Shown here: positions 876 to 37,463 of the stretch, piece by piece
Layout: each line of letters opens with the position of its first letter
Numbering within the stretch: position 1 is the stretch's first letter
DNA from: Flexibacter flexilis DSM 6793
Lineage (GTDB): Bacteria; Bacteroidota; Bacteroidia; Cytophagales; Flexibacteraceae
Length of the DNA stretch: 64,000 bases
Assembly (NCBI RefSeq): GCF_900112255.1
Contig: NZ_FOLE01000001.1
Location: 496,001-560,000 of the forward strand
Reading direction: 5' to 3'
Position numbers and translations under genes: made by a program
Notes under the pieces: model-generated
What the model was told of the DNA's origin: nothing
Seen by the model: only the letters and a program-made list of their open reading frames with translations
The model's database searches: none

Positions 876-1589
876 ATGAAAAAAATTCTTTTGGCCGAAG
901 ATGACCCCAACTTGGGGCAGATTTTACAAGAATATCTCACCGTCAAAGGCTTTGAGGCCGTATTGTGCAGAGATGGTGAAATTGCTTTGCAGGCTTTTGC
1001 CAAACAGCAGCCTTTCGACTTGTGTATTTTGGATGTGATGATGCCCAAAAAAGATGGATTCACGCTGTGCGCCGACATTCGCAAAATCAATGCAACGATT
1101 CCCGTTATTTTCCTGACGGCGCGTTCGCAAAGTAAAGATGCGATTGAGGGTTTTCAGGCTGGCGCAGACGATTATGTAGCCAAGCCTTTCAGTATGGAAG
1201 AATTACTTTTGCGTATCAATGCCATTTTGCGGCGCAGTACGTCGGCAGTAGGCAACGGACAAGAAAACAAAACTACTAATGAAAATCAGTTTATTATAGG
1301 AAGTATGGCCTTTGATTATCAGACACAAACGCTCAAAAGCCAAACGCAAACCCATAAACTCACGTCTAAGGAAGCCGAGTTGCTCAAATTGCTTTGTCAA
1401 AACCAGAATCAGACCTTAGAACGCGGCACGGCACTCAAGCACATTTGGCACGACGACAGCTACTACAATGCCCGCAGCATGGATGTTTATATTACCAAAC
1501 TCCGCAAATATCTGCGCGACGACACGAATGTAGAAATTGTAAACGTACATGGCACTGGATTTAAACTGCTCGTTACCAATACAATATAA
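876..1589 (+). CDS. OmpR/PhoB-type response regulator, RprY-like
   Basis: A 237-residue DNA-binding response regulator. The receiver domain (about 1-120) has the acidic pair AEDD at 7-10, the phosphoacceptor Asp53 in CILDVMMP, and the switch Thr and Lys in FLTAR and AKPFS. The C-terminal winged helix (about 140-235) has LTSKEAELLKLL and the recognition region ARSMDVYITKLRKYL. It resembles Bacteroidota RprY-type regulators. No histidine kinase gene adjoins it in the window, so its partner is unknown. It is preceded by about 100 bp with an AATAAGGTTTGG stretch, where no clean promoter was seen. Confidence 0.9.
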   Translation: MKKILLAEDDPNLGQILQEYLTVKGFEAVLCRDGEIALQAFAKQQPFDLCILDVMMPKKDGFTLCADIRKINATIPVIFLTARSQSKDAIEGFQAGADDYVAKPFSMEELLLRINAILRRSTSAVGNGQENKTTNENQFIIGSMAFDYQTQTLKSQTQTHKLTSKEAELLKLLCQNQNQTLERGTALKHIWHDDSYYNARSMDVYITKLRKYLRDDTNVEIVNVHGTGFKLLVTNTI

Positions 1590-1615: not shown

Positions 1616-1685
1616 TTTGCAATAATGTTGCAAAAATCAAATGCAGGGTTTTATATTTGCAACATTATTGCAAATATAAAACCCT
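1616..1685. promoter_or_regulatory. Double palindromic operator, Zur/Fur-like, over the promoter of the lipoprotein gene
   Basis: A 19-bp palindrome TTTGCAATAATGTTGCAAA lies at 1616-1634 and its exact reverse complement lies at 1656-1674. The second copy is the core of a perfect 41-bp inverted repeat (arms 1645-1662 and 1668-1685, loop CATTA). A Bacteroidota -7 element TATATTTG (1652-1659) is inside the second palindrome, and a GTTG at 1627-1630 can serve as the -33 element. A repressor bound here would cover both promoter elements. The 7-5-7 architecture TTGCAA-N5-TTGCAA is like Fur-superfamily sites, in particular Zur. That identity is inferred. Confidence 0.7.
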
Positions 1686-1692
1686 AACAAAG

Positions 1693-2238
1693 ATGCGTAC
1701 TTATTCTAAATGGATGTTGTTGGCTGTAGTGGCTGGCAGTTTGGCGGCTTGTAACAAAGATGACGAAGACGACCACCAAGACGAAAACGAATTGATTACG
1801 ACCGTAAAAATCACCCTCAAAAACAACCAAAATGCCGCCGATAGTAGTGTTGCTATCTGGAAAGATTTGGACGGAGAAGGTGGCCAAAATCCTGTAATTG
1901 ACACCCTCAAACTCAAGGCCAATACAGTGTATGTAGGTAAAATTCAGCTATTGGACGAGTCAAAAAATCCAGTAGATAACATCACGGAAGAAGTGGCGGA
2001 AGAAGCCGTAGAGCATTTGTTTGTGTACAAACCTTCGGCTGGTTTGGGGCTTAGCATTGAGCGCACGGACAAAGACAAAAATAATTTGCCTATCGGTATT
2101 GCTACGAAATTCACAAGCACTGCGGCGGCAACAGGCAATTTAGAAATTATCCTCCGACATCAACCTGGCACAAAAGACGGTACAGAAACGCCTGGCTCTT
2201 CGGACGTGGACGTATTTTTCCCTACCAAGGTTCAATAA
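1693..2238 (+). CDS. Small secreted lipoprotein under a metal-type operator
   Basis: The ATG at 1693 gives 181 residues with a lipoprotein signal (positive MRTYSK, hydrophobic LLAVVAGSLAAC, lipobox LAAC). The mature N-terminus is rich in Asp, Glu and one His (NKDDEDDHQDENE), a possible metal-binding tail. The remainder is predicted beta-rich and ends in DVDVFFPTKVQ. It resembles the Bacteroidota lipoproteins loosely named type 1 periplasmic-binding-fold superfamily, often found with TonB receptors; none is present here. The start at 1693 lies 8 bases after the operator palindrome, which supports it over an upstream in-frame ATG at 1606 that would place the operator inside the coding region. 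Role in zinc or other metal acquisition is an inference from the operator. Confidence 0.75.
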   Translation: MRTYSKWMLLAVVAGSLAACNKDDEDDHQDENELITTVKITLKNNQNAADSSVAIWKDLDGEGGQNPVIDTLKLKANTVYVGKIQLLDESKNPVDNITEEVAEEAVEHLFVYKPSAGLGLSIERTDKDKNNLPIGIATKFTSTAAATGNLEIILRHQPGTKDGTETPGSSDVDVFFPTKVQ

Positions 2239-29889: not shown

Positions 29890-29933
29890 CAAAAGACATT
29901 GGCTTTATTTCTCAATAAAGCCAATGTCTTTTG
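29890..29933. terminator. Perfect 20-bp hairpin between two signalling genes
   Basis: Arms 29890-29909 and 29914-29933 are exact reverse complements (start CAAAAGACATTGG), loop TCTC. It begins 44 bp after the V4R-like gene and ends 20 bp before the next ATG. It has only a short T run, so it may be a terminator, an RNA stabiliser or a processing site. Confidence 0.65.
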
Positions 29934-37311: not shown

Positions 37312-37330
37312 TTTCTTTATGAGATAAAAA

Positions 37331-37368
37331 AAAGCCCGATGCATATTGTTGCATCGGGCTTTTTTTTA
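37331..37368 (+). terminator. Terminator after the Spy-like gene
   Basis: Perfect 13-bp arms AAAGCCCGATGCA (37331-37343) and TGCATCGGGCTTT (37350-37362), followed by a T run. Confidence 0.9.
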
Positions 37369-37463
37369 TAAACAATGAGGTATGCCCATAAAAGAAAAAG
37401 GCCTGACCAAACTGGCCAAGCATTTTGAACAACCATTAAACCTAAAACTATGAAAACAAAAAC

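Follow-up and report, generated by a model that had tools for sequence, protein, structure and literature searches.

Twin putative Zur boxes precede the gene of a probably surface-exposed lipoprotein in Flexibacter flexilis

Results

Organization of the locus

The window analysed here is a 64-kb stretch of DNA from Flexibacter flexilis DSM 6793. As shown in Table 1, it contains a gene for a 181-residue lipoprotein, which lies downstream of a response-regulator gene on the same strand. The region between the two genes holds two palindromes of 19 bp. The original prediction described them as exact and oppositely oriented, with the second nested in a perfect 41-bp inverted repeat, and these features were confirmed. 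Because the motif itself is palindromic, the two orientations differ only in the 5-bp core, which is TAATG in one box and CATTA in the other. Tandem boxes are also common before relatives of the lipoprotein gene, and their spacing is variable.

The consensus of the Bacteroidota −7 promoter element is TAnnTTTG. The sequence TATATTTG at positions 1652–1659 fits this consensus and is a putative −7 element. It follows, after a spacer of 18 nt, the TTGCAA at 1628–1633, which lies in the right half of box 1 and contains the TTG of the putative −33 region. At its other end, the −7 element overlaps the left half of box 2. This promoter-like pair (TTGCAA at 1628 and TATATT(TG) at 1652) is consistent with the proposal that the boxes overlap both promoter elements.

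Table 1. Features of the lipoprotein locus, with positions numbered within the 64-kb window
Feature	Position	Strand	Basis or remark
Response-regulator gene (Response_reg + Trans_reg_C)	876..1589	+	Upstream neighbour, not in the unit; ends 26 bp before box 1
Zur-type box 1, TTTGCAATAATGTTGCAAA	1616..1634		Exact match; same palindrome before zinc-type genes here and in relatives
Putative promoter	1628..1659	+	Consensus match only
41-bp inverted repeat around box 2	1645..1685		Perfect 18-bp arms, 5-nt centre
Zur-type box 2, TTTGCAACATTATTGCAAA	1656..1674		Exact reverse complement of box 1
Lipoprotein gene, 181 aa	1693..2238	+	Open reading frame; homologues; no family match; structure model
Mature N-terminus CNKDDEDD	1750..1773	+	Lipobox Cys20, then surface-export signal C-X-K-D/E-D/E
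Folded-domain stretch with possible metal ligands E100, E104, H108, D126, D128, H156, D171	1990..2208	+	Conservation; model

The lipoprotein and its family

The acidic lipoprotein gene proposed at this locus is real: its product has the lipobox LAAC with Cys20, and homologues were found in 46 of the 59 genomes searched. Eighty homologous loci belong to named Bacteroidota, mainly Hymenobacter, Dyadobacter, Chitinophaga, Spirosoma and Siphonobacter. None of 24 family members matched Pfam-A at an E value of 0.01, and no NCBIfam model gave a score over its cut-off for the lipoprotein of the window; no match to a known lipoprotein family, such as SusD or HmuY, was obtained. A comparison of the family profile with the PDB gave weak matches only, for example to the repeats of a collagen adhesin. 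In the openly accessible literature, we found no data on binding, expression or metals for this family. The family is widespread in Bacteroidota, is in neither Pfam nor NCBIfam and is undescribed.

The predicted structure is a single Ig-like β-sandwich domain (mean pLDDT 89; about 97 over residues 41–180). Its structural matches are generic Ig-like β-sandwiches (best Z 8.8; no Foldseek E value below 0.001). Because only these common sandwiches were found, we did not read a function from the fold. The fold search gave no known family, although the domain may still belong to one. Across 61 sequences, the residues C20, H108, D126, D128, G135, H156, P158, K161, G168 and D171 do not vary, and conservation is nearly complete (at least 90%) for E100 and E104. 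In the predicted β-sandwich, the possible metal ligands are in loops, in a helix or at the ends of strands. According to the strand order of the model, H108, H156, the 125–136 loop and D171 are at hairpin ends and should share one side.

The N-terminus of the mature protein was initially suspected to be a metal site on account of its Asp, Glu and His residues. However, an export signal fits this segment better. In Capnocytophaga, C-X-K-(D/E)2-X has been tested as the surface-export signal (LES) of lipoproteins, and outer-membrane lipoproteins that face the periplasm are without it (PMC5080379). The CNKDDEDD segment matches the LES pattern. At least two acidic residues occur at +2 to +6 in 67 of 81 homologues, whereas at least two His residues in the first 16 positions occur in only 8 of the 81. 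Because acidic residues are common and His is rare there, we read the tether as an export signal rather than as a metal site, and the conserved His and Asp residues are in the folded domain. The lipoprotein is probably surface-exposed, as suggested by this signal.

Occurrence of the box in the genome and in the order

We estimated chance occurrence with an order-2 model of the window. By this model, the exact form TTGCAAYNNNRTTGCAA is expected 0.01 times in 64 kb and 0.7 times in 4.25 Mb. In the genome, it was found at four places, all in promoter regions, and a control motif written backwards was found at none. Two of the four places are in the promoter region of the lipoprotein gene. The third is on contig C3, at 80 bp from the TonB receptor gene that it precedes, and the fourth is on contig C15, 59 bp before a gene for a MerC-domain protein (PF03203, 7e-19). 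Thus, the search for other TTGCAA-N5-TTGCAA sites near metal genes, which had been proposed as a check, gave sites before a TonB receptor gene and a MerC gene. In the host and 58 relatives taken together (59 genomes), TTGCAAYNNNRTTGCAA occurs at 48 places and the control at 4. The 19-bp form is present in 117 of 390 genomes of the order, and the control in 2.

Two more exact TTGCAA-N5-TTGCAA places in the genome (L003 and L004) are intragenic and without the Y/R core; these were set aside as chance. Sites with one mismatch in the genome are mostly intragenic. When up to two mismatches were allowed in the window, two sites were found versus 2.37 expected, which is uninformative; the case therefore rests on the exact matches and their genome context. 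It should be mentioned that the genome regulon scans are searches for sequence patterns only. By these counts, the boxes are not chance.

The MerC gene and an OxyR-like LysR gene of the opposite strand share the intergenic region that holds this box (L006:1501-1618). A link between zinc and oxidative stress is possible at this shared region.

The partner receptor

In 66 of 77 homologous loci, a TonB receptor gene is directly upstream of the lipoprotein gene on the same strand. In 8 of the 11 loci where it is not, the lipoprotein gene is preceded by its own box (one mismatch at most). When the receptor from a relative's operon was used as a query, one clear counterpart was found in the host, namely the box-bearing receptor of contig C3 (613 bits; the next match, 38 bits). 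Because the operon receptor finds this receptor, we conclude that the predicted receptor-lipoprotein pair is present here but split, and that each half has its own box. The original prediction placed no TonB receptor nearby. That is right for the locus; however, the receptor is encoded on another contig behind the same box, and its gene is the neighbour of the lipoprotein gene in most relatives.

The best solved relative of the receptor is ZnuD (4rdr, 4e-13), and the receptor has an N-terminal CarboxypepD_reg-like domain. Against the ZnuD equivalog model (NF038289), it scored 104.6 bits, which is far below the cut-off of 950. Therefore, we call it only ZnuD-like.

Genes preceded by boxes in relatives

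In relatives, boxes precede receptor-lipoprotein operons (L065–L074), and at seven loci they stand directly before the lipoprotein gene (L021, L023, L024, L026, L029, L030 and L032). One box precedes a cluster of zur, receptor and lipoprotein genes (L074), and another precedes a zur gene that is divergent from lipoprotein and receptor genes (L053). Other boxes are found before a ZIP gene (L044; PF02535, 1e-38), before CobW/G3E GTPase genes (L040, L180 and L183) and before MerC genes (L049, L050, L062, L076, L178 and L184); in L049, a GTPase gene follows that of MerC. The predicted gene set associated with the boxes in relatives is the content of a Zur regulon.

At the operon starts of the 77 homologous loci, a TTGCAA box with one mismatch at most was found in 27, and none of the 23 other palindromic hexamers with this composition was found at any. 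About two thirds of the homologous loci are without the box, including all those from Hymenobacter and Chitinophaga that we examined, and a search for a replacement in the operons of these two genera gave no other shared palindrome. Because these operons lack the box, Zur control is supported for only part of the lipoprotein family.

Two further kinds of neighbour were observed. In two genera, TTGCAA boxes precede genes for thioredoxin-reductase-like FAD proteins (L039:1501 and L182:2471); the latter box is in a stem with a T run behind it and may be a terminator. In two related genomes, a Zur-type box precedes the gene of a 146-residue secreted protein without a Pfam family (L041:1501 and L179:2442), and this protein is possibly a new regulon member.

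FUR-family regulators

The genome encodes two FUR proteins. One (L007) resembles Fur/PerR. The other (L008:1465-1893, PF01475) is divergent: it has 142 residues, two CxxC motifs, an HGHHHHDHVH loop and the Cys/His pattern of a metal site. Its gene, about 20 kb past the right end of the window, is the only intact Zur-like gene in the genome. Fifteen Dyadobacter loci that have receptor, lipoprotein and box also have a zur gene, just downstream and convergent, and a Dyadobacter Zur encoded next to the receptor-lipoprotein operon finds L008 at 53% identity. A second, broken Zur-like gene is present outside the window (G000:C1:151765-152075); it has in-frame stops and is 32% identical to Dyadobacter Zur. 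The host's zur and ZnuA genes are present, and in the genome scan no good box was found near them. A ZIP gene was not found in the host genome.

The Zur box predicted in Desulfovibrio is ATGCAACNNNGTTGCAT (Rodionov et al. 2004, PMC545781). It agrees with TTGCAAYNNNRTTGCAA except for the outermost base pair. Thus, the palindrome matches a Zur consensus, it recurs before zinc genes and zur, and a Zur-type FUR protein is encoded. The boxes are most likely Zur operators, and Zur control of the lipoprotein gene is strongly supported by this comparison.

Long stems around boxes

On the plus strand, no T run is present 3′ of the 41-bp repeat; the sequence there is AACAAAGATG. Therefore, the repeat does not serve the upstream gene as an intrinsic terminator. 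A scan of the minus strand gave a weak terminator-like match at the repeat. Stems with at least 10 extra base pairs were counted in two partly overlapping sets of boxes: they surround 5 of the 70 boxes of the first set and 7 of the 59 of the other, and such long-stem boxes are far above the shuffled expectation. Besides the window's own, long-stem boxes precede zinc genes at L040, L044 and L235. Others are terminator-like (L182, with a T run after the stem, and L236–L238 from Hymenobacter): they have a T run or are just past the upstream gene. We considered the long-stem boxes as one functional class, and this idea was dropped because at least one of them (L182), and probably also those of Hymenobacter, resemble terminators. 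An exact match to the motif alone can be a hairpin, which calls for caution in motif scans.

The Hymenobacter hairpins (L236:1020, L237:980 and L238:977) adjoin a methyltransferase gene. Their TTTGCAA core is kept and their outer arms differ compensatingly, as in a conserved terminator-like structure. Elsewhere in the window, two perfect inverted repeats with 20-bp arms (29890–29933 and 37324–37369) look like intrinsic terminators; the latter is flanked by A and T runs.

Discussion

We consider it likely that the product of this gene is a Zur-repressed, probably surface-exposed lipoprotein, which would bind zinc and act as a zinc-capture partner of the ZnuD-like receptor. When zinc is sufficient, zinc-bound Zur dimers would sit on both boxes, mask the −33 and −7 regions and keep transcription off. 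Upon zinc limitation, Zur would lift and the lipoprotein gene would be expressed. At the cell surface, the lipoprotein would catch zinc or a zinc carrier and pass it to the Zur-controlled, ZnuD-like TonB-dependent receptor, which is encoded elsewhere in the genome. Binding of Zur, repression by zinc and physical contact with the receptor are steps that we infer from the sequences. The core of the original prediction, a surface lipoprotein for metal capture repressed by metal, gains support from the other boxes near metal genes.

This proposal can be extended to the family. Its members may be surface zinc-capture lipoproteins that serve a ZnuD-like receptor as its lid, or substrate-binding partner, with a metal site made from H108 and H156 together with D126, D128, D171 and E100/E104. 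An undescribed Bacteroidota family of this kind would be a zinc counterpart of BtuB-BtuG. We advance this extension tentatively, giving it a little under an even prospect of being right.

Other explanations were weighed against a zinc-capture lipoprotein. It is unlikely that the lipoprotein is under zinc control and serves another substrate, for example cobalt, nickel or a metallophore complex, via the receptor. A Zur regulon can contain receptors that take up a carrier, and the scores of the receptor against heme and ZnuD models are far below the cut-offs. However, most of the other genes associated with boxes are typical zinc-homeostasis genes, and ZnuD is the best solved match of the receptor.

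We also regard as improbable a periplasmic lipoprotein that, under the same Zur operators, would buffer zinc or relay it from the receptor to ZnuA. Regulation and gene pairing fit such a protein equally, ZnuA is encoded in the genome, and the acidic, His-containing tether could hold metal. Against this idea are the match of CNKDDEDD to the tested surface-export signal (PMC5080379) and the acidic residues at the same positions in most homologues (67 of 81).

The original prediction left the regulator open between Zur and Fur. Zur is the most likely, and Fur or PerR less so, because in relatives the boxes adjoin zinc genes and the zur gene. The genome does encode a second FUR protein, the Fur/PerR-like L007, and the boxes of the FUR family are all dimer palindromes. 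Nevertheless, the box equals a predicted Zur box and is unlike the Escherichia coli Fur consensus quoted in the same report (PMC545781), so that binding of the other repressor, and a response of the lipoprotein to iron or peroxide, seems very unlikely. Least credible is the idea that the 41-bp repeat acts as a hairpin terminator, or is some other structural repeat, with incidental TTGCAA halves: some exact matches inside long, perfect terminator-like stems in relatives (L182 and L236–L238) and the minus-strand match would suit it, but the plus strand has no T run after the repeat, the 19-bp core recurs in box 1, where there is no long stem, tandem boxes precede homologous genes, and a hairpin leaves the association with zinc genes unexplained.

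The Zur-controlled zinc-capture lipoprotein proposed here gives, for some of the Cytophagales, a Zur box and a regulon that can be tested, together with a likely role for a lipoprotein family that is present in most sampled genomes of the order (46 of 59). It suggests that zinc enters via a pair of receptor and lipoprotein, as vitamin B12 does in Bacteroides. If this is true, the pairing would be a wider general principle of nutrient capture in Bacteroidota. A literature search limited to open-access papers gave neither a Bacteroidota Zur regulon nor a zinc lipoprotein of this kind, and the word Bacteroidetes is absent from the searched text of a 2018 review of Zur regulons (PMC6103462).

Several known systems resemble parts of this one. 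The Zur box of the Desulfovibrio znuABC-zur genes (PMC545781) has the same inner palindrome, TGCAAY-N3-RTTGCA, and also precedes zinc-uptake genes and zur. In contrast, the boxes described here have T and A outside (TTGCAA..TTGCAA), occur in Bacteroidota, are in tandem and precede a receptor-lipoprotein pair rather than znuABC. In Caulobacter, Zur controls outer-membrane TonB receptors for zinc (PMC4176598), which is similar; however, Caulobacter belongs to another phylum, and the searched part of that report names no lipoprotein partner. ZnuD of Neisseria (4rdr; NF038289) is, like the host receptor, a TonB-dependent receptor, in this case for zinc. The host receptor differs in that it scores below the equivalog cut-off, has the CarboxypepD_reg-like domain and is encoded by a gene that is paired with a lipoprotein gene in relatives.

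The arrangement of a receptor with a lipoprotein has two parallels in Bacteroides. The xenosiderophore system XusA-XusB of B. thetaiotaomicron, as cited in PMC12574912, similarly combines a metal-related TonB receptor with a substrate-binding lipoprotein. According to that citation, its substrate is iron-enterobactin, and the likeness considered here is one of arrangement. In BtuB-BtuG, the B12 system of Bacteroides (PMC10404256), a surface lipoprotein acts as a lid of the TonB receptor and captures the substrate. There, the substrate is B12 and the lipoprotein belongs to a different family, whereas the pair described here is predicted to be zinc-regulated and its complex is putative.
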